From: Acidithiobacillus sp.
Lineage (GTDB): Bacteria; Pseudomonadota; Gammaproteobacteria; Acidithiobacillales; Acidithiobacillaceae
Assembly: GCF_023256195.1 (NCBI RefSeq)
Contig: NZ_JAGDWX010000031.1
Span: 1 to 44,392 of the forward strand
Direction of reading: 5' to 3'
Length of the DNA: 44,392 nucleotides
Part shown: in pieces, positions 5,576 to 19,650 of the stretch
How the letters are laid out: each line of letters starts with the position of its first letter
Numbering within the stretch: the stretch's first letter is position 1
Program-made: the position numbers and the translations under genes
The notes under the pieces: generated by a model
The model's input: the letters and a program-made list of their open reading frames with translations, nothing else
Database searches by the model: none
What the model was told of the DNA's origin: nothing

Positions 5576-6040
5576 TCACCCACTCCGTATCCGGATCATC
5601 CGGATCGCAACCCGATCCTCGGTGTGATAGCCGAGGTTCGGGTTTCGGTTTTCTGCAGCGGAGTCTCCCGCCTCCGTGGCATGGGCATCCTGCCAGGTGA
5701 GCGCTTGGCCCGGCTGAATCTTCAGACGGACTATACTGTGACTCGCTGCCTCGATCACTGCGCACGCGCCGCTACGACGTCCGGGAAAGGCCCAGCGCCA
5801 GGGTCGGATATCCGTCTGTACAGCGACGACCCTGTCCTGTGCGTCCAACCAGATGAGGTCCAGTGGAATCCGCATTCCCCACATGTGGATCGACGAACAT
5901 GGACTCAGCCACAGGGCCTGCTCTTCTTCCAGACCCCGCTTGCCCAGCAGCCCCCACGCGCGCGCCAAAAAGTCGTCGGCCTTGCGCGCCTGGGGCCATA
6001 GACATTCCCCACCACGCCAGATGCCACCCGGCCGACTCAC
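5576..6040 (-). CDS. DUF192 family protein at the end of the Tad operon
   Basis: A 154-residue member of the DUF192 family, small beta-barrel proteins of unsettled function. The recognisable core is LWLSPCSSIHMWGMRIPLDL followed by DAQDRVVAV and IRPWRWAFP, matching the family's HT/M-x-GM...DV pattern. The GTG start at 6040 has AGGAGG seven bases upstream and overlaps the tadC stop by four bases, so it is translated with the pilus genes. The C-terminal 35 residues are a poorly conserved tail. It converges with the DUF4168-like gene, four bases away. DUF192 genes occur beside tad loci elsewhere, but no role is proven. Confidence 0.8.
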   Translation of the reverse strand: MSRPGGIWRGGECLWPQARKADDFLARAWGLLGKRGLEEEQALWLSPCSSIHMWGMRIPLDLIWLDAQDRVVAVQTDIRPWRWAFPGRRSGACAVIEAASHSIVRLKIQPGQALTWQDAHATEAGDSAAENRNPNLGYHTEDRVAIRMIRIRSG

Positions 6041-7050
6041 GATGCCACCTCCTGTACGTATTTCATATAGATAACAAAGGTCAACACGATGAATACGATG
6101 GGAAAGATAAACATGATCAGTGGCGCCAGCAGCTTCACCGGGGCTTCGAGCGCCGCTTTTTCCGCACGCAGAAAACGCTCCTCGCGGCGCTGTTCCGCTT
6201 GGGCCTTCAACACAGGGCCAAGACTGCCGCCCCGTTCCTCCGATTGAATGATGGCAGTAACCAGGCTACGCAGCTCCTGCATCGCGACGCGATCGCCAAA
6301 TCGGCGGAATACCTCGATTCGGGGCATACCAGAGCGAAGATCCCGTAAGATCATCCGAAACTCGTTGCGTAGGGGACCCTCCGGTCCCTTGTCCACGGCG
6401 ATCTGAATGGCGCCCGTCAGATTCAGGCCACCCTCCACCATCAGCGTAATGAAATCCAGGTACACCGGCAAATCTTTCAAGATGCGCTTCTTCCTTTTCT
6501 TGGACTGCTCCACTAGCCAGAGATCGGGATAGAAACTGGCCAAGAGCATGCCCAAGAGCACGAGCTCCCAACGAAATACGTGCAGGGCCATGTAGACAAA
6601 AAGTGAAAAAAGCAAAGGAAACAGAGAGGACAGGATCTTCAGTGCAAAAAAATCGCGCGGCGTGATCATGTAGTTGAGCCCCGCCCTCTGAATGCGCGGA
6701 GCACTGCGGTAAACTATAGACTCTGGGATGAAAGCAACGATGGTAGAGTCGATAAAACGCACCACGGGCCAGATTCGCCGCAGGCCCTTGGGGAGTGGAT
6801 CAAAGTACTCGCGAGGCTGGGATTCCACCACCGTCAATAGCGTGGAGAGACCGTAGACGATTCCGGCCACGACCAGCGCCACCAAAAGACCAACCAGGAT
6901 ATAAGGGATCTGCCCGCCGCTCTGGGCCAGGGCATCCAGAATCCACGCTCCAAAAAATATACCGCCGAGGAGCAGGATGAGACCCCCGATCAGCCAGATT
7001 AGCCAGCCCCTACCTCTGCTTGCAAAGGATGACGCGCGCGGAACGTTCAT
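6037..7050 (-). CDS. tadC: Tad pilus inner-membrane platform protein TadC
   Basis: A 337-residue polytopic inner-membrane protein of the type II/IV secretion F family, which with TadB forms the platform that the TadA ATPase drives. Two N-terminal membrane helices (about 15-70) and a further pair around 130-180 precede the cytoplasmic T2SF domain, where VYLDFITLMVEGGLNLTGAI is typical. A final helix near the C-terminus (MFIFPIVFIVLTFVIY) closes it. A GAGG ribosome binding site lies in the end of tadB, and the start is two bases after the tadB stop, so the two are translationally coupled. Confidence 0.9.
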   Translation of the reverse strand: MNVPRASSFASRGRGWLIWLIGGLILLLGGIFFGAWILDALAQSGGQIPYILVGLLVALVVAGIVYGLSTLLTVVESQPREYFDPLPKGLRRIWPVVRFIDSTIVAFIPESIVYRSAPRIQRAGLNYMITPRDFFALKILSSLFPLLFSLFVYMALHVFRWELVLLGMLLASFYPDLWLVEQSKKRKKRILKDLPVYLDFITLMVEGGLNLTGAIQIAVDKGPEGPLRNEFRMILRDLRSGMPRIEVFRRFGDRVAMQELRSLVTAIIQSEERGGSLGPVLKAQAEQRREERFLRAEKAALEAPVKLLAPLIMFIFPIVFIVLTFVIYMKYVQEVAS

Positions 7051-7051
7051 A

Positions 7052-7906
7052 TCATACCTCGATGCTCACGATCTTCCGGATACCCCAATATCCCAACAAC
7101 TCAAGAACGATGGCGATGGCCAGCACACCCCAGCCGCGGTAGGTATCGAATAGCGCCCCGGTAGCGGCGGGCTCTATGCGCAGAAGCGCCAGGATGATAA
7201 GTACGGGCAGAGCGGTCATGACCAGACCCTGCAATTTACCCTGAGAGGTCAGCGCCTGGATCTTCTGCTCCATCATCAGCCGTCGACGCACCGTCTCGCC
7301 CAGGCGCTGCAGGGTATCGGCCAGGTTGCCGCCCACCTCCCGATTGATTCGCAGCGCCGAGACCACCAGATCGAAATCCTGTGAACCCACACGCTCTGCC
7401 AGGTGGCTAATGGCGTCCTCAAAGGGCACCCCCAGGCGCTGCTCGCGCACGACCAGGGCCAACTCCTGATTCATGGGCGGGCTCATGTCCTTGGCCAGGC
7501 CCTCCAGAGTCTGACCCAGGTTGGCACCGCCACGTAGGGCCGATGCCATCATCAAGAGGGAATCGGGCAACTGATTGTGTAACTGGTTGTATCGGCGCTT
7601 CTTGAGGAAAGCGATGATCCAGCGCGGCGCGAGGCCCACCAGAACGGCAGAGAGCACCACGACGGGCAGGGAGTCCACCAGAAAAAAAACCAGCAAGGGG
7701 ATCAAAAGCACCGCCACCAGATTGATCCGCCAGAGAAGTGCCGGATCCGCAAAGATGAACATGTCGGCCAGACTTCGGCGAGTTTCCGTCGAGAAGCTCT
7801 GGCGTTGGCGTTGCAAGACACGCCGGGAGCTCTCGACTACAACGTATAGCAACACGCTCACCGCCAGGAAGACGAGCAGCGCAAAACCGATTTCAGGCGC
7901 GTTCAT
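7052..7906 (-). CDS. tadB: Tad pilus inner-membrane platform protein TadB
   Basis: A 284-residue partner of TadC in the Flp pilus assembly platform. The start at 7906 (MNAPEIGFALLVF) is preferred over an ATG 40 codons upstream because the upstream part lies wholly inside tadA and is not membrane-like. One helix at the N-terminus and two near residues 70-110 precede the T2SF domain, with LPDSLLMMASALRGGANLGQ and EVGGNLADTLQRLGETVRRR. Helices at the C-terminus end the protein. It overlaps the end of tadA by 14 bases. Confidence 0.9.
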   Translation of the reverse strand: MNAPEIGFALLVFLAVSVLLYVVVESSRRVLQRQRQSFSTETRRSLADMFIFADPALLWRINLVAVLLIPLLVFFLVDSLPVVVLSAVLVGLAPRWIIAFLKKRRYNQLHNQLPDSLLMMASALRGGANLGQTLEGLAKDMSPPMNQELALVVREQRLGVPFEDAISHLAERVGSQDFDLVVSALRINREVGGNLADTLQRLGETVRRRLMMEQKIQALTSQGKLQGLVMTALPVLIILALLRIEPAATGALFDTYRGWGVLAIAIVLELLGYWGIRKIVSIEV

Positions 7907-9632
7907 GATCGGCTTCCAGGAAAATGCTGGTGTCGACGGGCAGGCCGCGGGCGCGCATCTCCTCATAGAATTCCGGCATGCTGCCGCTAGCGCGGAAGGT
8001 GCCACGCACCTTGCCGTCGGGGCCAAAACCCTGTTGTTTGAAGCTGAACAGCTCCTGTAGCTGAATCACGCCGCTCTCGGTGCCCGTCACCTCGACAATG
8101 GCAGTCAGTTTGCGGGAGCCGCAGGAAAAACGCGTGATCTGTACGATGATGTCGATGGCCGAAGCAATCTGTTCGCGGATAGCGGTCAGGGGTAGCTCCA
8201 TGCCGGCCATCATGACCATCACTTCCATACGCGAGAGCATATCCCGAGGACTATTGGCGTGTGCCGTGGTCAGGGAGCCGTCGTGGCCCGTATTCATGGC
8301 CTGAAGCATGTCCAAGGCTTCTCCGCCACGACATTCGCCGACAACGATCCGATCAGGCCGCATACGCAAGGCATTACGCACCAGCTCTCGGATGGGTATG
8401 GCCCCCCGCCCCTCCACGTTGGCGGGGCGCGCTTCCATGGATACCAGGTTGGGCTGATACAGCTTCAGTTCGGCGGCATCTTCGATGGTCACGACGCGCT
8501 CATTGGGCGGAATGAAATTAGAGAGCACGTTCAAAAGAGTGGTCTTGCCCGAACCCGTACCACCGGAGATGATGATGTTCTTGCGTTGCTCCACCGCCAC
8601 CTGAAGGAACTGCGCCATGCGCGGTTCCACCGAACCGAAGCGGATGAGATCCTCCATCTGTAAACGTTTCTTGCTGAACTTTCGGATGGTGATGTTGGCA
8701 CCCTTGAGCGCAACGGGTGGAATCACGGCGTTGACGCGAGAGCCGTCGTGTAAACGCGCGTCCACCAAAGGTGAACTCTCATCGATACGGCGGCCAATGG
8801 GCGCGACGATACGGTCGATGATATTGCGCACCGCCTGCTCGCTGCTGAAAACCGTCGGCGCCGGCTCCAGGCGCCCTCCCCGCTCTATGAATACCTCGTC
8901 GTAGCGGTTAACCATGATTTCCGTGATGGTCTCGTCGGCCAAGAGGTCCTCCAATGGTCCAAGACCGACCGCCTCATCGACCACCTCCTTGATGAGGCGC
9001 TCGCGATTCAGTTCCGGCGGAACCCGCATGCCCTGAAGCGTGTCTGTGGCCAACTGCGATACCACGCGCTGCAACTCCTCTCGACTGAGGGCCGTCAGAT
9101 CCATACGGCGCAGATCCATCTGCGCCCGCACCCGCTCTTCCAGTGCGAGACGCCAGCGCATCCACTGGGGATCGACCGGCGTCTTCGCGATCTCCTGCGT
9201 CCGCGCCGCCGGGGGCGGCGTTTCTCCCATCGTCGTTGTTGCCCTGCTCGTGGCAGGCGAGTCGGAAGAGGCACCGACTCCATCCGACGCCATGGCTTCG
9301 ACAGGGGCGGTCACCGTTTCCCGTGCCGGCTCCGTCGACTCCGCCTCGTGGTGTATGCGCAGGGTAACTCCGGCCAACTCGATCACGTCCTCCGCTTTCA
9401 AGGGGCCGTACCAGCGCACCTTCTCACCGTTGACGCTGATGGATGCCAAGGGACCTATGGCCTCGACATAGGGACCATCTGCACGACGCAAGATGCGCGC
9501 ATGCTCCTTGCCGATGTTCCAACCCTCGACACGAACGTGTGCCTCCGCCGATCGTCCGATGAGACAGACGCCCTCGTGCGGTCGAACCTGCAGCGGGCCA
9601 TGTTTGGCATGCTCGGCAATCACTCGAAACAT
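7893..9632 (-). CDS. tadA: Pilus assembly ATPase TadA/CpaF with N-terminal FHA domain
   Basis: The motor ATPase of the Flp pilus, 579 residues against roughly 430-500 for typical TadA. Residues about 1-95 form an FHA-like domain (LIGRSAEAHV, GKEHARIL, SVNGEKV). A Pro/Ala/Thr-rich linker (about 97-150) joins it to a CpaF-type ATPase: Walker A GGTGSGKT at 357-364, the Asp-box region VVTIEDAAEL, Walker B RPDRIVVGECRGGEA and a His box GHDGSLTTAHANS. In the FHA part the first conserved Arg (R27) and the His (H44) are present, but the Ser usually three residues before that His is Gly, so phosphothreonine binding may be altered. Start 9632 has GAGGAG upstream. No separate TadZ gene is seen. Confidence 0.93.
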   Translation of the reverse strand: MFRVIAEHAKHGPLQVRPHEGVCLIGRSAEAHVRVEGWNIGKEHARILRRADGPYVEAIGPLASISVNGEKVRWYGPLKAEDVIELAGVTLRIHHEAESTEPARETVTAPVEAMASDGVGASSDSPATSRATTTMGETPPPAARTQEIAKTPVDPQWMRWRLALEERVRAQMDLRRMDLTALSREELQRVVSQLATDTLQGMRVPPELNRERLIKEVVDEAVGLGPLEDLLADETITEIMVNRYDEVFIERGGRLEPAPTVFSSEQAVRNIIDRIVAPIGRRIDESSPLVDARLHDGSRVNAVIPPVALKGANITIRKFSKKRLQMEDLIRFGSVEPRMAQFLQVAVEQRKNIIISGGTGSGKTTLLNVLSNFIPPNERVVTIEDAAELKLYQPNLVSMEARPANVEGRGAIPIRELVRNALRMRPDRIVVGECRGGEALDMLQAMNTGHDGSLTTAHANSPRDMLSRMEVMVMMAGMELPLTAIREQIASAIDIIVQITRFSCGSRKLTAIVEVTGTESGVIQLQELFSFKQQGFGPDGKVRGTFRASGSMPEFYEEMRARGLPVDTSIFLEADHERA

Positions 9633-9642
9633 GATCTACTCC

Positions 9643-11145
9643 TCATTGTGTGTCGCCATTACTAGGGGGCTGGGTGACCACCAACGGAAGCGAGGGCTTC
9701 GGCGCTGGGACAGCCTGGGTTTCCGGATAAGGCGTTTTGGACCCCAAAGTGCGATCCACGGCCTCGCGGGTCACGGAGTCCTTGCTCAGACTTTTGCGGT
9801 ACTCCTCTTTCAATTCCACGGCACGAGATACCTGGCGAATGTTCTCCAGCGACGCCGCACTCACCACACGCGGTGTCACCAGAATCACGAGATCCGTGTT
9901 ACCGGACCGAAATTCGGTCGATTTGAAGAGATTACCGAGGATCGGGATATCTCCCAGCCAGGGGAGCTTGGAGGCATTTTTTGCCGATTTAGGATTGACC
10001 AAGCCGGAAATAACCATGGTCTGTCCATCGCCGACGTTGATATCGGCCTCACTGCGCCGAGTGGTGAATCCGGGTACCGAAAACCCGTTGAGTACCACAC
10101 TGGTCGCCGGATCGATTTCCGACACATCGGCCAAAACCTTCATGGTGATGTTATTGTTGTCGTCAACTTGGGGAGCAAAGTTCAACTGGATGCCGTAATC
10201 CTTGAAGGTCACGTTTTGGAACGCGGCGCCACCGGTGGACAAGGCCTGCAGAATGGGAATCTGGCCGCCCGCCAAAAAACTCGTCTTTCCACCGCTGCGG
10301 GCGCTCAGCTGTGGATTGGCGATCTGGTAGGCATCCCCATTACTGAGGGCAAAATTGATCTTGGAAAGCATACCGGTGATGATGCCGACGTTCAGCGCGC
10401 CGCCGATGGGCCGCGCGAGATTGGCCAAATCTATTACGCCATCCAGGCCCGGGGGGGGCGGCGTCAGACGTATGCCGGATCCCGCCACCGGCGGCTGCGT
10501 GAGATCCTGACCGAGCGGAATCGTCGGCACATTTCTTGGCCCAATAAAGTCTCTGCCATAACCCACAAAGGGACCGGCAATCTGCTTGGTCCAGTCTACG
10601 CCAAAATTCTCCAGGAGGCTCTTACGAATCTCCAGTATGTTCACATCCAACCACACCATCTTTTCCATCTGGAAGGGCGAGGCCGTGGCCAGGACGATGG
10701 TGTTGGGGTACAGCCCTCCTAAGGCTGAGATGCGCGACATAAGGGCGGGCGGGATATTTTTGCCGTCCACCACGATCTTGTCGCCGACGATACGGATCTG
10801 CACGTCTTTGTGCTCCTTGCCCAGGAGCTCCCGCATCTCCTCGGCGGCACGTCCGATATTCTTGGGTGCCACCATCACCCGATACGCTGCCTCGCTACCA
10901 TCTTTGAACCATAGCCGCAGACTGGTTTCCCCTTCGGCCTCGCCCAGCAAAAGCAGCTCCTTACCATCCACCACCGTACTGCTCACCACCTTGCCATTAC
11001 CGATAGCCACCCGCTTCACGGGCTTGGTCGGTAGCACCTTGACCTGACCGGCGTAGAGGTCGATGTTGGGATCCTCCGCTGCACTGGCAGAGGCACCGAA
11101 ACCGAGGAGCAGGAGGAGGGCTACGAGTTTTTTCACGGGTTGCAT
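9643..11145 (-). CDS. cpaC: Tad pilus outer-membrane secretin CpaC/RcpA
   Basis: A 500-residue secretin forming the outer-membrane pore for the Flp pilus. The start at 11145 gives a classic signal peptide (MQPVKKLVALLLL...ASASA) with AAGGAAG upstream; a start nine codons earlier would spoil it. Residues about 20-110 are the pilus N-domain, followed by a BON-like segment. The secretin core shows VWLDVNILEIRKSLLENFGV, a GGKTSFLAGGQIP segment, NVGDGQTMVISGLV, and the end LPWLGDIPILGNLFKSTEF then DLVILVTPRVV, which is diagnostic. It lies between cpaB and tadA with short spacings, consistent with one transcript. Confidence 0.93.
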   Translation of the reverse strand: MQPVKKLVALLLLLGFGASASAAEDPNIDLYAGQVKVLPTKPVKRVAIGNGKVVSSTVVDGKELLLLGEAEGETSLRLWFKDGSEAAYRVMVAPKNIGRAAEEMRELLGKEHKDVQIRIVGDKIVVDGKNIPPALMSRISALGGLYPNTIVLATASPFQMEKMVWLDVNILEIRKSLLENFGVDWTKQIAGPFVGYGRDFIGPRNVPTIPLGQDLTQPPVAGSGIRLTPPPPGLDGVIDLANLARPIGGALNVGIITGMLSKINFALSNGDAYQIANPQLSARSGGKTSFLAGGQIPILQALSTGGAAFQNVTFKDYGIQLNFAPQVDDNNNITMKVLADVSEIDPATSVVLNGFSVPGFTTRRSEADINVGDGQTMVISGLVNPKSAKNASKLPWLGDIPILGNLFKSTEFRSGNTDLVILVTPRVVSAASLENIRQVSRAVELKEEYRKSLSKDSVTREAVDRTLGSKTPYPETQAVPAPKPSLPLVVTQPPSNGDTQ

Positions 11146-11158
11146 GAGACTTCCTTTT

Positions 11159-12391
11159 TTAACGTCCAGCATTGGGGTTGACCGGTGGTAGTAATTCGTC
11201 GATGGGAATCGGACGATTGGGGCCCGCAGCTTGCCTTAGCCCATATGAGTCGCTGCCAGGACGACCGGCTCCTCGTCCAGTGGCTTCCGCAATGCGACGC
11301 AGATTGCGGACGTCCAGGCGGGCAGTGAGCTGGCCATTGGTGCCGGTTCCGCCGACGATGTACTCTATGGCGTCGGCTGCATAGAGGCTGCCTCCCGAAC
11401 GCCCCCGGATTCCCAGGATATCTCGGACGCTGTACACCTTTGCCGGAGCCACTACCTTGGAATCGTGGCTGCGTAATACGAGTTGCAGCGAACCCAGGCG
11501 TTTGGCCATCGCCAATTTCTGAATCTGCTCCGGTGTCAACTCGACAGTCACCGTGCCGAACTGTGCGGGCCGCCCTGCTTCTGCGGGATCGCTACTCAAG
11601 TTGGCGGCGGAATCGTCCCCGACGGTGCGATTCCCGGTGGCGATGACCTTGAGGTCGCGCTCCAGATAGCGCACGGTTTCTTTGGGAAGCTGGCTCTCGC
11701 TTGTGTTCCCACCCGCCCGGAATAAGAGCGGTCCACCCGTCTGCGCACCGGCAAACTCCAGTCCCTCCGGCGCGCCCTCCATGCCGCCATAGGAACCACC
11801 GGCATTAGGCCAGGAGGCGGGTAGCGCGCGGCCAGACATGCGGCCATCGCCACGCCCGTTCTCGCCCTCCCCGGTGTAAAACCACAGAACATCGACGTGA
11901 TCGCCCGGTTGCAGCATGCCATCGAGACTACTGAGGTTGTCCACGGAAAAGGTCATGGCAAGCTTGTCCGGAGCGATGAGATCGGCCAAGGTTCGGCGGC
12001 CGCTCAGATAGGAGGCCAGAATGGGCCGCCCCTCCTGCAAAGGAACGTTGACCCGGTGACCGGCAAAACTGTCGAAGCTTTCCGGAGTGATGACATCGCT
12101 GGGCGCCGTGTCGGCAGGAATGGGACGGGCCGCGACCATACTGAGATCGAGGATCGCACCGGCCGGGACATCGCGGGTGGGAACCACGACACGGATGGTG
12201 GCTTGCTTCTGGCTGGCGCGAATGTTCTCCAGGGCGGCTTCCTCGCGCGAGCGCAAGGTATGTACTGCCAGATAAGCAGCGCCAAGCCCGGCCAACACGG
12301 CCACCAGGAGGATCAACCAGCCGCCCAGGGCTCGCGCGGGCTTTTTCTGCACATTGACGCCATCAAAATCGTTAGGTAGTTGGGTAGACAC
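11159..12391 (-). CDS. cpaB: Flp pilus assembly protein CpaB/RcpC
   Basis: A 410-residue periplasmic protein anchored by one N-terminal helix (about 25-45), thought to help assemble or stabilise the secretin. An SAF-type domain follows (VVVPTRDVPAGAILDLSMV), then the RcpC/CpaB segment with DNLSSLDGMLQPGDHVDVLW. A Gly/Gly-Glu-rich insert around residues 170-230 is longer than usual. The Asn/Pro-rich C-terminus is variable. The start is GTG at 12391 with AAGGAA six bases upstream. It sits directly before the secretin gene, as in other tad loci. Confidence 0.88.
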   Translation of the reverse strand: MSTQLPNDFDGVNVQKKPARALGGWLILLVAVLAGLGAAYLAVHTLRSREEAALENIRASQKQATIRVVVPTRDVPAGAILDLSMVAARPIPADTAPSDVITPESFDSFAGHRVNVPLQEGRPILASYLSGRRTLADLIAPDKLAMTFSVDNLSSLDGMLQPGDHVDVLWFYTGEGENGRGDGRMSGRALPASWPNAGGSYGGMEGAPEGLEFAGAQTGGPLLFRAGGNTSESQLPKETVRYLERDLKVIATGNRTVGDDSAANLSSDPAEAGRPAQFGTVTVELTPEQIQKLAMAKRLGSLQLVLRSHDSKVVAPAKVYSVRDILGIRGRSGGSLYAADAIEYIVGGTGTNGQLTARLDVRNLRRIAEATGRGAGRPGSDSYGLRQAAGPNRPIPIDELLPPVNPNAGR

Positions 12392-12409: not shown

Positions 12410-12640
12410 TCAGTCGACAACGGGCTGTGAGGCGGCCCAGGAATAATCGGCATAAGCACCGCGCAAGGCCACGGAAAGCTGGGTCAGCACCGAGGCATCG
12501 CCGGGAAGTTTGCCGGGGACGAGCGATGGTAAAGGGGCGAGAAGCGCAACGATGATGGCCAGCAGCACGACGAGATATTCGACTATGGACTGTCCGCTCT
12601 GGCTGCTGGTGCAATTCACAGGGATAGACTTTTTCAACAT
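12410..12640 (-). CDS. Short prepilin-like protein of the Tad locus
   Basis: A 76-residue protein with an Flp-type prepilin processing site: a polar leader, then SG before QSIVEYLVVLLAIIVALLAP, so cleavage after Gly gives Glu at +5 and Tyr at +6. A single hydrophobic helix follows, then a short polar tail of about 35 residues. It lacks the MGDY-type end shared by the three main pilins at 17580-18662, so it is more likely a minor pilin or a TadE/F-like pseudopilin than a fibre subunit. Start 12640 has GAGGAG upstream. Confidence 0.7.
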   Translation of the reverse strand: MLKKSIPVNCTSSQSGQSIVEYLVVLLAIIVALLAPLPSLVPGKLPGDASVLTQLSVALRGAYADYSWAASQPVVD

Positions 12641-13334: not shown

Positions 13335-14261
13335 TCACGGACCCGTGTAATTGGGTATCTTTGGCGCCGGCTGCAAGCGATCGCCAAACTGAAGCTCTGT
13401 ATCTATTTTTAAACGGTTGGCGTCCGGATCGGAATAATGATACTGCGCTTCGCGAAACAAATATCCAAGCGGCACACCAAGGACGTACAGGAATCGGGAC
13501 AGCACGGTGAAGGGGATCTTTCCGTGGGACACCGTCTCCAGGCGTTTCATGAACCCGTCCCGAAGAAGCTTCTCCTCCTCCCGACTACCGTTGGCCGTCC
13601 AGGCATCGGTCAACACCGCCGCCTGGGCACGAAAAGTCAGCGGATTACCCAGTCCTACCTGTGCGAAAAGCCTCTGCGGTAGCCCCGCCGCTGTGGCGCT
13701 AACGGTGGCCACCGTCGGCCCAGTCATCTCCATGGGATTACCGGTAACCCTATTCAAGGTGTTCATCACTCCGTTGGTCCATCCTCCGTCAAAAGCCTCT
13801 TGACGAGTCGCCACGGTGACGTTCTGTTCCCGCTCTACCAAGAGAGGATCTCCGTCGTGCTTGCGCAAAAGCGGATCGCGGCTTGAGCCCTTTGCGGCGT
13901 CCGCGCCATTGGCGCTGCCCGCTACGGCCGTTATGCGCTCGCGGGTGCCACCGAAGTAGCGGACACGAATTTCATTGGCTAGATCGGCGTCGGACTTCAA
14001 CGCTATCCATTCCCGATTCTTTGGTGGCTCCGTCCGCCAGACTACCCGCTCCCACGCCGCGTAGCGGGCGGCCTCGATGGTACGATCCTGAAGATAGGCC
14101 CACTTACCCACGTAAACCCCAAGAATCAGCAGCGGTACGAGAACAAACCCCGCAACGACCACGGTTTCCGTGAGCGCCTGACCCTTTTCTCCGCCAAGAA
14201 GCGGCCCGGGCCGCGACGCACAGCGCCACGACAAACGCTTTACCAGCCCTAAAGAAGACAT
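13335..14261 (-). CDS. TadE-like pseudopilin
   Basis: A 308-residue protein with a prepilin-like segment after a 27-residue cytoplasmic leader: KGQALTETVVVAGFVLVPLL, a membrane helix, then DRTIEAARYAAWERVVWR, which is typical of TadE-like proteins. Known TadE proteins are cleaved by the prepilin peptidase and needed for pilus assembly. The remaining 220 residues are periplasmic with no recognised domain, longer than most TadE proteins. AGGAGG precedes the ATG at 14261. The 206 bases upstream hold no convincing gene. Confidence 0.75.
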   Translation of the reverse strand: MSSLGLVKRLSWRCASRPGPLLGGEKGQALTETVVVAGFVLVPLLILGVYVGKWAYLQDRTIEAARYAAWERVVWRTEPPKNREWIALKSDADLANEIRVRYFGGTRERITAVAGSANGADAAKGSSRDPLLRKHDGDPLLVEREQNVTVATRQEAFDGGWTNGVMNTLNRVTGNPMEMTGPTVATVSATAAGLPQRLFAQVGLGNPLTFRAQAAVLTDAWTANGSREEEKLLRDGFMKRLETVSHGKIPFTVLSRFLYVLGVPLGYLFREAQYHYSDPDANRLKIDTELQFGDRLQPAPKIPNYTGP

Positions 14262-14467: not shown

Positions 14468-15802
14468 TCATTGCCAGATCGACTGCAGCAGCTTTTCCAC
14501 GTACTCCGCTCCAGCGTGGGAAGCGCGTTGCACCGCGCGATAAGTTTCCCGAGCGTAGTCGGCTAGCCCATTGACAAAGTCCATGGGCACACCCGCCTTA
14601 GGAAGCTCCCGACGAATGAGATCAGGTTGGACTATCTCGGCCTGTGCCGCGACTTTTTCCACTTTCTTATATTGGTCACGAACTTCCGCCCAAAAGCGCT
14701 GAAAGTTGGGCGCCTTCTTTGCCGCTTCGCGGAAAGTTCTCTCTGCTAACGCCTCGCGTTCCGCCATCACCTGCTCTGGAGTCATCTTCCTTTCACGAGC
14801 CAGACGCTCGTCGATATAGGCGTTGGTAAAGAACTCCGTTCCCTTACCCAGCGGGATCGCCGAAGTTTGCACGACGTACCCAAATGAAAGGTCGCGCTGG
14901 GCGTATGGTTCGCCGGTCTTTGGATTACGCTTGTCCAGCCAGGAACGACCAAAATCGTCAGTCACCAAGCAATGAATGCTTTTTATCGGGAGGGTGTCAT
15001 CGTACTCATTAATGCTTAACAACGCGCCATTATGGACATTTGGAGTGACTCTTTGTTTCAAAAGCGAAGCATGATAACCCGCCACCCATCCTTTTGCTTT
15101 GCGCGGGGTCACATCCTCGTAACCACGCTGTTCCGCCAACTTGACGATAGCCTTGGTCACTTGCTCGGGCGTTCCCGTGGTCACAAACGGAATGATTCGA
15201 TAAAAGGTTTGGAGTTTACTTTTCACATGTTCCCGACGCACTGGATTTGTCTTGTAGAAATCCGCTTCCAAATACGCGGAAAAACGAACCGTTTCCCAGT
15301 CTCTCATCCCGAAGGGCGCGAACAAAATGCCTTGTAAGGCAAGATAGGCCTGCAATTCCCTCAGGGGAACCACAAAGTCGTGTAGGTCTGAACTGATTTC
15401 CACGCCTGGGAGATGGGCCGCAAAAGGCCTGCAATCACGGGCGTCGTTTTCCCAGAGCGCGACGAGTTTGTCGAACTTGGGGTCCGCAGACCCCACGAAA
15501 AAAGCGCCCGAGTGATCCCATCCCTGCATCGCCTCGGGTCTTTCATCCAGGTAACGGCTTCCATTCTCGCGGACGAGGCGATCGGCGGCTGGGTAGGGAT
15601 CGCCGACACCTTTGCTCTTCACACGGATGGCACTCTCCGGTGCCGCTGTGGGAATACTCTGCAAAGACGCGATGATCGCGTCCGTTTCCGCCTTCATTTT
15701 GGCAATTTCTTCCTGATAAGGCGACGCCCATGCCGGAGCCGACGCGCCGGCGGCGAGCGACGCTAACAGGAACCCCCGCACCAGGAACGCTTTACGCCGC
15801 AT
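14468..15802 (-). CDS. Large exported protein of unknown function in the Tad operon
   Basis: A 444-residue protein starting at 15802 with a Sec-type signal peptide (MRRKAFLVRGFLLASLAAG, cleavage near AWAS). Several regions are rich in Lys, Glu and aromatic residues. There are only two cysteines (DARDCRPF and SIHCLVTD). I see no membrane helix after the signal, no lipobox and no known enzyme motif. It lies between the TadG-like and TadE-like genes on the same strand, with small gaps, so it is probably co-expressed with the pilus. Candidate roles are a pilus-tip or periplasmic assembly factor; neither can be shown from sequence. Confidence 0.65.
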   Translation of the reverse strand: MRRKAFLVRGFLLASLAAGASAPAWASPYQEEIAKMKAETDAIIASLQSIPTAAPESAIRVKSKGVGDPYPAADRLVRENGSRYLDERPEAMQGWDHSGAFFVGSADPKFDKLVALWENDARDCRPFAAHLPGVEISSDLHDFVVPLRELQAYLALQGILFAPFGMRDWETVRFSAYLEADFYKTNPVRREHVKSKLQTFYRIIPFVTTGTPEQVTKAIVKLAEQRGYEDVTPRKAKGWVAGYHASLLKQRVTPNVHNGALLSINEYDDTLPIKSIHCLVTDDFGRSWLDKRNPKTGEPYAQRDLSFGYVVQTSAIPLGKGTEFFTNAYIDERLARERKMTPEQVMAEREALAERTFREAAKKAPNFQRFWAEVRDQYKKVEKVAAQAEIVQPDLIRRELPKAGVPMDFVNGLADYARETYRAVQRASHAGAEYVEKLLQSIWQ

Positions 15803-15826: not shown

Positions 15827-17533
15827 TCACTCGGCCAGATTCAAAGCGGCAATGGCAGCACGCTCTTGCTGCGTGAGATCGACCAGCCGCGCCGACCAGA
15901 ACGGACTGAAGAGGTTGGCGCGCTCGTCCAAGCCGTCGCTGCGCGGCCAGAGTTCCGCTGGGCGACGGAAGTAGACCTGGGCGGCGGCGGCGGCGCGAAC
16001 GCCCTCGTTCTGGCCGGCACCCTTGGTCTCCAGGTGCATGTTGAGCCAGCCGAGGCGGGCGTTGCCGGCGTCTGGATCGCTGCTAATCCCTAGCGCCGTG
16101 ACAGAATCGCGCACCGCGCCGCGTGGCAGGTCGACTACCACCACGAAGCGCGGGGCGGTGTCCGTGAGATCCACCTTTTCTCGGGTGACCCGTTTGCCCT
16201 GGGAATCCGTCGTCTCCCACTTGAGATCGCGATATGTCGCTATCCCTTTATGAGCACCCCGGCCAACTCCAAAACTCGGCATATAATCCCCGACCAAGCG
16301 ATCGCTATAGTCGGCCACCACACGATTCATGCCGCGCGAGTCCTGACGCCAGGCGTCGTTGTATACCTGACCATCACGTTGAAGCATGGTCTTATTGTCT
16401 GCACTCTGGGCACCCTCCATATACGGATACGACCAAGCGCGGTCCGCAGACTGGTAATAATCGAAAGACCCCCGACCGGGGAAGGACCAGGTACCACCCC
16501 AGCCCCAACTTTCTCCGTACAAAGTTTTCCATCCACCGAAGAGGATAAACTTGCGCATTTGGATCTGCGTTTTAATGGTATCGGCGCCAGACCAGACGTA
16601 GTTGCCGTTTTCGTCCTTGGCAAACTGACTGCCGCCCTGCTTGTCGGTACCCGCTCTAAAACCAAGGATGGGAGGGAAAGACAAGGGAGGACCTACATGG
16701 TGACTACGATTTCTGGTAAATTCGCCGCGGCCCTCGTTGATCATACTGGCCATTCGTGCGCGCCCGCCGGGGTCATTTCGGCCGCCGTCGGCGCTACCAC
16801 CCCAGGTCGTCACGTAGTTGCGTCGCGCGTTCCAATAAGGCGCATTCAATGCGACTAGCCCTGCCGGGGTGTAGTTCAGCGCTCGCGCCCTGTCTCCGGC
16901 ATTCAGCCGTACTATCTGCTCCACCGTTTTGGCCACAGGTCCACCGGGAGTGGACACGTTAAAAGTGGCGTTGAGGATTTGGGACGCGCCGGCATAAATG
17001 GCGTCGTAGGTATTTCCCGCGCCAACGTAAAAGCTACCATAACGGTTTCCTGCCTCGGCGGTTAATTTTGCGGTGTCCTCGATCGCTTTCTGGTAAAAAT
17101 CCAAGAGTCGTACCAACGCGCTCCCCGCTCCAGGAAGAACGATGTCAAGGAGTCGCGCCGCACCTTTGTAAGCAGCAAATGGATATTTGATGTTGTCCGC
17201 GACGTGTTCGAGGTAGCGGGACCAAGAGACAATGCTCACAGCCTGACCGATGGCAATCTCGTTCACGAGCATGGCGCGGTTGAGGTAGGCGTCGAGGTTC
17301 ATCTGCCGGGCCTGGAGTTCCATGGCAGAGAAGGCGGCGGCGTCGGCGGCGTTCTGGACCTTGAGTTTGTTGGCCGTGAGCTGGCCGGTGTTGAAGACGA
17401 GGAGCACACCGGCGATGGCGGCGGGGATGAGCAAGACCGCTACCAAGGCCGCCTGACCGGACTCGTCCGCCGCGACCGGCCGCCTTTCGCCCCGAGATCG
17501 GAACCTCTTCCTCAGCAATCGCATCCATGCCAT
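15827..17533 (-). CDS. TadG-like pilus-associated protein
   Basis: A 568-residue protein with the N-terminal TadG/TadE-like segment: SGQAALVAVLLIPAAIAGVL, a membrane helix, then NKLKVQNAADAAAFSAMELQ, which is diagnostic of the putative Flp pilus-assembly TadG-like N-terminus. The long periplasmic part is Gly, Tyr and Trp-rich (for example around residues 330-400) without the von Willebrand A motif found in many TadG proteins. The start at 17533 is chosen because GGAGGAG lies seven bases upstream; an earlier ATG 15 codons up has no such site. It follows the three pilin genes and probably shares their transcript. Confidence 0.78.
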   Translation of the reverse strand: MAWMRLLRKRFRSRGERRPVAADESGQAALVAVLLIPAAIAGVLLVFNTGQLTANKLKVQNAADAAAFSAMELQARQMNLDAYLNRAMLVNEIAIGQAVSIVSWSRYLEHVADNIKYPFAAYKGAARLLDIVLPGAGSALVRLLDFYQKAIEDTAKLTAEAGNRYGSFYVGAGNTYDAIYAGASQILNATFNVSTPGGPVAKTVEQIVRLNAGDRARALNYTPAGLVALNAPYWNARRNYVTTWGGSADGGRNDPGGRARMASMINEGRGEFTRNRSHHVGPPLSFPPILGFRAGTDKQGGSQFAKDENGNYVWSGADTIKTQIQMRKFILFGGWKTLYGESWGWGGTWSFPGRGSFDYYQSADRAWSYPYMEGAQSADNKTMLQRDGQVYNDAWRQDSRGMNRVVADYSDRLVGDYMPSFGVGRGAHKGIATYRDLKWETTDSQGKRVTREKVDLTDTAPRFVVVVDLPRGAVRDSVTALGISSDPDAGNARLGWLNMHLETKGAGQNEGVRAAAAAQVYFRRPAELWPRSDGLDERANLFSPFWSARLVDLTQQERAAIAALNLAE

Positions 17534-17579: not shown

Positions 17580-17894
17580 TCAATTCTTTCCGGCCTTACC
17601 GAGGTCGGCCGTCGCCCCGTAGTTGCCCATACTCTTCTGGATGTTGGCCGCCTCCGCAGCCTTGCGCGCCTTGCCCTGGGCGCTGTCGCTTTTGCCGGCG
17701 TCCGGTGGGGCCTTGCCTACCAATTCGCCGGCGATCCCTGCCACCTGGTAGCGCATGGTCTGACCAAAGCGGGAAAATACCGCGATGGCCGCGATGGCGA
17801 TGAGGGCCACCACGATGAGGTATTCGGTCATGCCCTGACCGTGTTCCCTTGATGCGGTCTTCTTCCCGAAAAACCGCGGTTTAAGCTTGCTCAT
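17580..17894 (-). CDS. flp: Flp-type pilin, third in tandem
   Basis: A 104-residue Flp prepilin. The leader MSKLKPRFFGKKTASREHG is basic; cleavage after Gly19 would expose QGMTEYLIVVALIAI with Glu at +5 and Tyr at +6. The helix runs into VFSRFGQTMRYQVAGIAGEL. The 85-residue mature form is longer than classic Flp pilins. A Lys/Ala-rich linker leads to the tail KSMGNYGATADL, matching the tails of the two pilins upstream. Start 17894 is chosen for a GAGG seven bases upstream; an ATG two codons earlier is possible. A hairpin at 17964-17990 separates it from the second pilin. Confidence 0.88.
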   Translation of the reverse strand: MSKLKPRFFGKKTASREHGQGMTEYLIVVALIAIAAIAVFSRFGQTMRYQVAGIAGELVGKAPPDAGKSDSAQGKARKAAEAANIQKSMGNYGATADLGKAGKN

Positions 17895-17963
17895 CGTCAT
17901 CCCTCGCGAGCCTCTTATCGCCGCCTTTTTGGAGCAGAAAGCTCAGGCAGTGCTTCCTCTTCC

Positions 17964-17990
17964 AAAAGGGCGACCGCACGAACGGTCGCC
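17964..17990 (-). terminator. Intercistronic hairpin, possible attenuator, between second and third pilin
   Basis: On the - strand an 8-bp stem GGCGACCG (17983-17990) / CGGTCGCC (17969-17976) with a 6-base loop is followed by CTTTT. The T run is short, so it may terminate only part of the transcripts or protect the 3' end of the upstream pilin mRNA. Pilin subunits are often made in excess over assembly proteins in this way. Confidence 0.55.
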
Positions 17991-18021
17991 ACGTTTCTGC
18001 GTCTCTACACGCCTGCTTCGA

Positions 18022-18312
18022 TCACTTGGTGTTCAGAACCTTCGCAGAACTGTAATCGCCCATGTTCTTGGGCAGGGTACCTTGGCTATTGGCCTTGCTC
18101 GCCGTGCCCTTGGCGTTGCTGACGCTCGTTGAGGAGTCATCACCCGCCAATTCCGAAGCGATACCAGCCACCTGATGGCGCATGGTCTGGCCGAAGAAAG
18201 AAAACACGGCGATGGCGGAGATGGCGATGAGGGCCACCACGATAAGGTATTCGGTCATGCCCTGACCGGCTTCCCGAACGGACTTGCGCACAGCGATAAA
18301 CTTCTGCTTCAT
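18022..18312 (-). CDS. flp: Flp-type pilin, second in tandem
   Basis: A 96-residue Flp prepilin whose start at 18312 has GGAGG five bases upstream. The leader ends in REAG, then QGMTEYLIVVALIAISAIAV with the canonical Glu+5 and Tyr+6. The conserved block FFGQTMRHQVAGIASELAG follows. A Ser/Thr/Lys-rich linker ends in KNMGDYSSAKVL. The mature form is about 80 residues. It is about equally similar to its two neighbours in the helix and tail but differs in the linker, which points to duplication followed by divergence of the exposed part. Confidence 0.9.
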   Translation of the reverse strand: MKQKFIAVRKSVREAGQGMTEYLIVVALIAISAIAVFSFFGQTMRHQVAGIASELAGDDSSTSVSNAKGTASKANSQGTLPKNMGDYSSAKVLNTK

Positions 18313-18371
18313 GACAACCTCCATAGAACGATGTGGGAGTACAACAGGACCTTGCTTACGCAAGACAAAAA

Positions 18372-18662
18372 TCACTTCTGCTTACTGAGGATATTGGTCG
18401 AGGAATAGTCCCCCATGGTCTTCTGCTTGCTCGCCGCGTCGTTGGCATAGCCGGCGTCTTTCTTGGCGAATTTCACGCCATATTTGGTGGAATCCGTTCC
18501 CACCAGCTCATGGGCAATCCCACCCACCTGATTGCGCATGGTGCGACCAAAGTTGGAGAACACGGCGATGGCGGAGATGGCGATAAGGGCCACCACGATG
18601 AGATACTCTGTCATCCCCTGACCGCGCTGGTTGCGGGTCGATTTCATGAAACCAATGAACAT
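18372..18662 (-). CDS. flp: Flp-type pilin, first in tandem
   Basis: A 96-residue Flp prepilin, first of three in tandem. The ATG at 18662 follows GGAGGG by seven bases; the open frame extends 56 codons upstream into the HTH gene but that part is not pilin-like. Leader MFIGFMKSTRNQRG, then QGMTEYLIVVALIAISAIAV. The conserved block NFGRTMRNQVGGIAHELVG is followed by a Lys-rich linker and the tail KTMGDYSSTNIL. The gene starts 31 bases after the stop of the HTH gene. Confidence 0.9.
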   Translation of the reverse strand: MFIGFMKSTRNQRGQGMTEYLIVVALIAISAIAVFSNFGRTMRNQVGGIAHELVGTDSTKYGVKFAKKDAGYANDAASKQKTMGDYSSTNILSKQK

Positions 18663-18693: not shown

Positions 18694-19602
18694 TTACGGC
18701 CGCGGCGCGGCCCCTGAAAAACCGGGCGAGTTTCGGAAAGCAAGGGACTCGGCGTGAGATGCCTCTGGCTGAGAGCGGCGGAGACCATCTCGGCCCTCCG
18801 GTCGACCCTCGTCGCGGGCGATCCGCTCACTGCGGCATTCCGGTGCGTCCTCGTCGCCCGCCAAGGCCGGGGACGCGGAGCTGAGGCAGATCATCAAGGC
18901 GAGCCCGGAGAGGAGGACATATCTGGCCACCTCGTCGGCAAAAAACAGCTTGCGGCGACGAGCGTAGACCGCCCAGAGCGCGCCGCGCAGGTCGGCGCGG
19001 GATGGCAAGGCAAGGCGCGCGCGCATTCGCCGAAGACAGCTGCGCACGGTCTTCTCGTCGTAGGCACCGCTGGCCGCGATCTGCGCGGGCTCCTGTCCCT
19101 GCATGTAGGCACGCAGTATGGGGAGCTCGCAGGCTTCGATCTCGGGCAGGAAGGGCACGTGCTGACAGACGTCGCGCAGTATGGCATCGGCGGCCTCCTG
19201 CGCTAGCGCTGGCGGCAAGCCCTCACGGAACCGGACGATGGCGGCGAGACAGGCGGCACTGTTGCTGACCGACCGAATCTGCCAAAGGGTCTGGTCATCG
19301 CGCCAGCACCGACGCGTATCACCCATCGGGGAACGCTGCACCCAGGTGATGAATTCGCGCGGCAGACGTGGCCAGGAAGAGTTCGGTTTACGCCACCATG
19401 GCTCCAGCACAAACTGTCCGACTCCACGCTGTCGCCGCAGCCGGTAAACGGTGACGGAGCGCAGATAGCGGCGGTCAAGGCTGGGCGACTGATAGAACAC
19501 GTCCACCCCCTTGGGCGGCGTGAGACTCAGTGCTATGCTTTTGACCGAATCCTTCGGATCCGATCCGCCTCTGCCAAAAAGGCGGAGCCAGTAGTCCGTC
19601 AT
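18694..19602 (-). CDS. Membrane-tethered HTH protein heading the Tad operon
   Basis: A 302-residue protein, probably a regulator. Start 19602 has GAGGGAG eight bases upstream. Residues about 160-205 (RAYMQGQEPAQIAA then DEKTVRSCLRRMRARL) fit a LuxR-type helix-turn-helix. The N-terminal 150 residues carry no recognised receiver or kinase domain. A hydrophobic segment at about 226-246 ends in SSASPALAG like a signal anchor, leaving a roughly 55-residue charged tail outside. This order, cytoplasmic HTH then membrane helix then periplasmic tail, recalls ToxR-like one-component regulators. It is the first gene of the pilus operon, so autoregulation in response to pilus assembly is plausible but unproven. 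Confidence 0.55.
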   Translation of the reverse strand: MTDYWLRLFGRGGSDPKDSVKSIALSLTPPKGVDVFYQSPSLDRRYLRSVTVYRLRRQRGVGQFVLEPWWRKPNSSWPRLPREFITWVQRSPMGDTRRCWRDDQTLWQIRSVSNSAACLAAIVRFREGLPPALAQEAADAILRDVCQHVPFLPEIEACELPILRAYMQGQEPAQIAASGAYDEKTVRSCLRRMRARLALPSRADLRGALWAVYARRRKLFFADEVARYVLLSGLALMICLSSASPALAGDEDAPECRSERIARDEGRPEGRDGLRRSQPEASHAESLAFRNSPGFSGAAPRP

Positions 19603-19650
19603 GTAGAACGCTCCCTCTACTATCTTCGCAATCACCCTATCCACTTAGCG

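Follow-up and report, generated by a model that had tools for sequence, protein, structure and literature searches.

A conserved C-terminal tail marks a subfamily of long Flp pilins encoded by an Acidithiobacillus Tad locus and its relatives

The C-terminal motif shared by three tandem Flp-type pilins of an Acidithiobacillus sp. is, as judged from sequence comparison, a selected signature of a subfamily of long Flp pilins and not a local invention, because nearly all members of the subfamily carry it, short-Flp candidates lack it and its nonsynonymous divergence is low. The pilins belong to a complete Tad locus whose motor has an N-terminal FHA domain, and this motor variant accompanies the tailed pilins in nearly all of the loci compared.

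Results

Three long prepilins at the head of a Tad locus

In the window (the whole stretch of 44,392 nucleotides that was analysed, contig NZ_JAGDWX010000031.1), the tandem prepilin genes P1, P2 and P3 occupy positions 18662-17580 of the minus strand, the strand of all the window features given below. P1 (18372..18662), P2 (18022..18312) and P3 (17580..17900) are open reading frames of 96, 96 and 106 amino acids with mature chains of 82, 80 and 85 residues. Each has the Tad/Flp (type IVc) prepilin cleavage box G/XXXXEY in the form G/QGMTEY, so that the three tandem Flp-type pilins of a preliminary description of this DNA are borne out; the string GQGMTEY occurs in no paper of the open-licence literature searched. 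The same description gave mature lengths of 80-85 residues, longer than classic Flp pilins, which agrees with our control set of short-Flp candidates (n = 38, from PF04964 loci; mostly 39-50 residues when mature). Phylogenetic analysis places P2 in an ortholog clade that spans the Acidithiobacillaceae and P1 with P3 in another, both inside this family, and indicates that the three are paralogs duplicated within it. P3 is confined to this genus in the tree, and its sister copy occurs only in G018, a sister genome in which the P1 copy is 90% identical.

The pilin genes come first in a complete Tad locus, which continues on this strand with genes encoding a TadG-like protein, a 444-aa protein, a TadE-like protein, a 224-aa protein, a further Flp-box protein, RcpC, RcpA, TadA, TadB and TadC. 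Six of the machinery proteins exceed their Pfam cut-offs: the TadG-like protein, encoded first past the pilins and in the same order in relatives (15827..17533; PF13400, 30.3 bits), RcpC/CpaB (11159..12391; PF16976, 74.8 bits), the RcpA secretin (9643..11172; PF00263, 137.3 bits; PF13629, 62.2 bits), the TadA/CpaF motor (7893..9632; PF00437, 217.4 bits), and the platform proteins TadB (7052..7930; PF00482, 66.9 bits; start codon uncertain) and TadC (6037..7050; PF00482, 77.7 bits). The TadE-like minor pilin (13335..14261) has a G/QALTE box, a weak TadE match below the cut-off and homologs in Burkholderiales loci. The gene order pilin-TadG-TadE-RcpC-RcpA-TadA-TadB is also found in Burkholderiales. 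P1, P2 and P3 are best explained as subunits that build a single Tad (type IVc) pilus. The locus has no TadV (A24 peptidase) gene of its own, and the 1.98-Mb genome encodes a single A24 prepilin peptidase, outside the tad locus (G000:C8:72741-73085). Thus, the Tad pilins are presumably processed by a shared PilD-type enzyme.

Between P2 and P3 there is a terminator-like hairpin, or more than one (GGCGACCG..CGGTCGCC followed by CTTTT; 17920..17990; RNA fold z = -2.5), and a similar hairpin directly follows P2 in G018 and in the genome of a second Acidithiobacillaceae genus. The hairpin after P2 escaped the terminator scan owing to its short T run, and a promoter scan found no sigma-70-like site. 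The hairpin is likely a partial terminator that divides P1 and P2 from P3 and the machinery. Since it comes after P2, the cell may produce more P1 and P2 than P3 and machinery proteins.

The tail motif is a signature of long Flp pilins

Sequence and family conservation define a six-residue motif near the C-terminus of each pilin: KTMGDY in P1 (18405..18422), KNMGDY in P2 (18052..18069) and KSMGNY in P3 (17619..17636). The preliminary description was right that all three share this motif, but the proteins do not end in it as it had stated, since a further 9-12 residues follow (SSTNILSKQK in P1, SSAKVLNTK in P2 and GATADLGKAGKN in P3). Searches of 31 genomes of the order, of named genomes, of 369 genomes of the class and of 398 genomes of the phylum gave a family set of 75 different mature sequences, from Acidithiobacillaceae, Burkholderiales and many other gammaproteobacterial families. 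Of the 75, 74 have the pattern [LM]xx[YF] in their C-terminal half, and the remaining sequence is truncated ahead of the tail region; when these C-terminal halves were shuffled 2000 times, the pattern occurred a mean of 3.9 times and at most 13 times. The longer pattern [KR]x[LM]x[DNST][YF] occurs in 52/75 members, against a shuffle maximum of 3. Chance is rejected as a source of the motif.

Long tailed Flp pilins were found in 36/369 genomes of the class sample (about 10%), and outside the class the 398-genome phylum search returned short core matches only. A locus-specific origin is rejected, as families of Gammaproteobacteria and Burkholderiales share the motif. The taxonomic search suggested in the preliminary description thus shows the usual C-terminal consensus of a long-Flp subfamily that is widespread, not a local feature. 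It had also named commonness among ordinary Flp pilins as a point that would count against it; none of the 38 Flp-like candidates from the short-Flp control loci has the motif, which is rejected as a trait of that type. We found no description of the motif in open-licence papers, in line with the earlier statement that no description of it was known.

The tail also diverges slowly. Over 75 related pairs, pN was 0.192 for the linker and 0.131 for the residues beyond the tail, but 0.027 for the six tail residues and 0.016 for the core, so that nonsynonymous divergence in the tail is about 7-fold below that of the linker and near the level of the core. We compare pN and give no dN/dS ratio because synonymous sites are saturated. 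The earlier description is supported in that the tail is genuinely constrained; the picture it implied, of a functional tag specific to this locus behind an arbitrary linker, does not hold, given how widespread the motif is and that the linker has a conserved face of its own.

A variable linker with a conserved helical face

The mature chain is predicted to consist of a helix, alpha-1 (residues 1-40), which is the counterpart of a classic Flp, an invariant Gly41, an alanine-rich ladder helix, alpha-2 (about 46-62), and the tail [K/R]-x-[L/M]-x-[D/N]-[Y/F]. The helix core, described earlier as identical, is identical at 35-36 of 41 positions in pairwise comparison and at 34/41 across P1-P3. The linker had been said to differ completely. 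However, the family alignment of the linkers with their predicted alpha-2 (P1, 18423..18497; P2, 18070..18141; P3, 17637..17714) reveals a ladder of small residues, A51, A55, A58 and A/G62 in mature numbering (A-x3-A-x2-A-x3-A in P1), which P1-P3 all share with the rest of the family. Its 4-3-4 spacing falls on one helical face, and conservation recurs at close to 102 degrees (p about 0.03 by permutation, of nominal significance only). The Gly41 hinge, the ladder and the [LM]xx[YF] tail place P1-P3 in the long-Flp subfamily.

Two AlphaFold monomers (21 sequences each) have alpha-1 at 3-39, a break at 40-46 and alpha-2 at 48-66 in P1 or 46-62 in P2. The models contain helices only, as expected of an all-helical pilin with no globular beta domain, at low confidence outside alpha-1: pLDDT is about 50-63 for alpha-2 and the tail, the tail is uncertain and pTM is about 0.3. 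In neither monomer was the tail seen to touch the core, as judged without coordinates, and Foldseek gave no match of the P2 model in the PDB.

The long-Flp subfamily is covered by no Pfam or NCBIfam model. P1 (19.6 bits) and P3 (15.4 bits) are below the 32.2-bit gathering cut-off of PF04964 (Flp_Fap), which does not hit P2 at all. Among 21 family members compared with Pfam and NCBIfam, matches were weak and at chance level at most, with PF04964-type matches in 13/21 relatives (best E 0.012). Because its model matches are sub-threshold or absent, this pilin type is poorly served by annotation libraries. Searches of PDB sequences with phmmer and hmmsearch were marginal only (PilA 8u1k, E 0.34; geopilin, E 0.19), tblastn in plasmids returned nothing for P2 or for one Burkholderiales member, and the open-licence literature yielded no structure of, or experiment on, the subfamily.

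FHA-domain motors accompany the tailed pilins

The TadA/CpaF motor of the window has an N-terminal FHA domain (PF00498, 30.6 bits, residues 24-86), as do class III CpaF proteins, which the available passages of the paper describing them report as mostly betaproteobacterial (PMC12019362). A TadA with FHA lies beside long tailed Flp pilins in 20/21 loci, namely the locus in the window, 5/5 Burkholderiales loci and 14/15 loci of other genomes with TadA within about 6-11 kb of the tailed pilins. None of 11 control TadA proteins (nine near short Flp genes, and two that are the second TadA of a genome encoding tailed pilins) has the domain (Fisher p 9e-8, with relatedness ignored). The pairing also holds inside single genomes that have both types (G670, G738 and G748). 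The exception, L136 (G670:C1:5907600-5911300), belongs to G670, which has two tailed-pilin loci, and encodes a TadA in which FHA is not detectable, yet which has a long N-terminal extension. We found no description of the pilin side of this pairing in the open-licence literature.

Discussion

A possible role for the tail in pilus assembly

We propose that the tail is an assembly latch that docks alpha-2 on the fibre and leaves the variable linker facing outward, with P1 and P2, encoded upstream of the conserved hairpin, as abundant subunits and P3, encoded downstream, as a minor one. We place about half of our confidence in this reading. In Caulobacter PilA, the fibre is built from a helix of 45 residues whose N-end is central and whose C-end faces outward (PMC11067988), and alpha-1 of the long pilins would likewise form the fibre core. 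Because the C-end of the PilA helix points outward, alpha-2 and the tail must sit at the surface of the fibre or on top of it. There, the small-residue face of alpha-2 could pack on alpha-1 of its own or a neighbouring subunit, the tail would lock the end of alpha-2 in place through its L/M and Y/F side chains, and the outward faces of the variable linker would set surface charge and contacts. We infer a latch because the small-residue face and the two conserved hydrophobic or aromatic tail residues suggest packing.

Work on KilP, a major pilin of 97 aa and Flp type with an alpha-2 that covers the fibre in the published model, gives mixed support. In that model its alpha-2 is unfolded where it lies on the fibre, which fits a packed helix poorly, and a variant with Cys at the penultimate residue is labelled in the pilus and enters fibres but is not functional alone (PMC12075869). 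As a further counterpoint, Tyr and Lys close to a C-terminus that is exposed could serve a surface contact just as well.

Such a contact, proposed in the preliminary description, is the basis of an alternative that we consider unlikely, in which the tail is an exposed site for bundling, for adhesion to minerals or other surfaces or for phage, and is fixed because its external partner is fixed. Pilin C-termini can be exposed, since pili are visible when KilP is labelled at its penultimate residue (PMC12075869), and the outward C-terminus of the Caulobacter Tad pilin inserts into a pocket of a phage maturation protein (PMC11067988). The strong conservation of the tail is also consistent with a contact site. 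However, the same motif spans many gammaproteobacterial and Burkholderiales families, whose habitats range from acidic mines to lakes, which makes a shared external ligand unlikely. Phage or surface contacts usually diversify, and the two most conserved positions (L/M and Y/F) are hydrophobic or aromatic, as in packing.

The link with FHA motors would suit a tail that is a recognition or quality-control tag, read during extension or retraction by periplasmic parts of class III Tad systems (the RcpC ring, the secretin or the TadE/TadG tip). In its favour are the 20/21 against 0/11 co-occurrence, including that within single genomes, and the published status of class III CpaF, as far as the available passages of the paper go (PMC12019362). 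We judge it improbable, as inheritance of one operon lineage could by itself give the co-occurrence, TadA with its FHA domain is cytoplasmic and cannot touch a periplasmic tail, and no partner residue has been identified. That the tail has no specific role and is alike in P1-P3 through recent shared ancestry of tandem duplicates fits their paralogy but is highly improbable and already contradicted, as the motif persists at about 40-50% identity across dozens of families while the linker and last residues diverge, and its nonsynonymous divergence is 7-fold below that of the linker.

If the tail is indeed a latch, this would explain how variable surface segments are carried on a conserved fibre, and L/M and Y/F would be the two residues to mutate in cultivable Burkholderiales or Acidithiobacillus. 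More tentatively, and with real doubt, Tad pili with FHA (class III) motors might be a lineage apart, with a pilin architecture of their own: a coated fibre whose every subunit has a surface helix locked by the conserved aromatic tail, structurally distinct and possibly controlled by phosphorylation.

Relation to known systems

The machine is of a known kind, and its pilin subtype is undescribed in the open-licence papers searched. Like classic Flp/Fap pilins (PF04964; Caulobacter PilA, PDB 8u1k), the long pilins have the G/XXXXEY box with Glu+5 and Tyr+6, a hydrophobic alpha-1 and a tad locus. Unlike them, they do not end with alpha-1 at the length of the control chains, and instead reach 75-85 residues with a second helix and a tail. 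The solved Caulobacter Tad pilin is short and single-helix, and about a tenth of the gammaproteobacterial genomes sampled carry a longer type that travels with a recognizable motor variant. KilP, from the Tad-like Kil system of Myxococcus, is also a long two-helix Flp prepilin (PMC12075869), and the Kil motor KilF has an N-terminal FHA domain as in the TadA of the window (PMC8460266). The Kil system differs in having neither TadG nor RcpB and in its role in predation. Class III CpaF/TadA systems share the FHA-TadA of the window and of nearly all tailed-pilin loci; the passages available from the paper describe the motor class, and the pilin type was not seen in them (PMC12019362). Within the same family, the tad cluster AFE2699-2708 of Acidithiobacillus ferrooxidans has been annotated since 2008, and the passages found in that paper do not discuss pilin sequence features (PMC2621215). 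In these mineral-leaching acidophiles, P1 and P2 are likely the major subunits of an attachment pilus.

Other genes of the locus

Between the TadG-like and TadE-like genes, the locus encodes a secreted 444-aa protein (14468-15802) with no Pfam family over cut-off. It is about 36% identical in other Acidithiobacillus genomes, against 59-69% for its neighbours, and was not found in the Burkholderiales loci examined. A short fourth Flp-box protein (12410..12640; G/QSIVEY) is conserved in Acidithiobacillus and has no Pfam or NCBIfam match. It lacks the tail motif, has a conserved DYSWAASQPVV end and is possibly an adapter or minor pilin. Just upstream of P1 is a gene encoding a 316-aa protein (18694-19644) with a weak LuxR-type HTH match, which is a candidate regulator; Acidithiobacillus sp. 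YTS05 likewise encodes a homolog upstream of its pilin genes.
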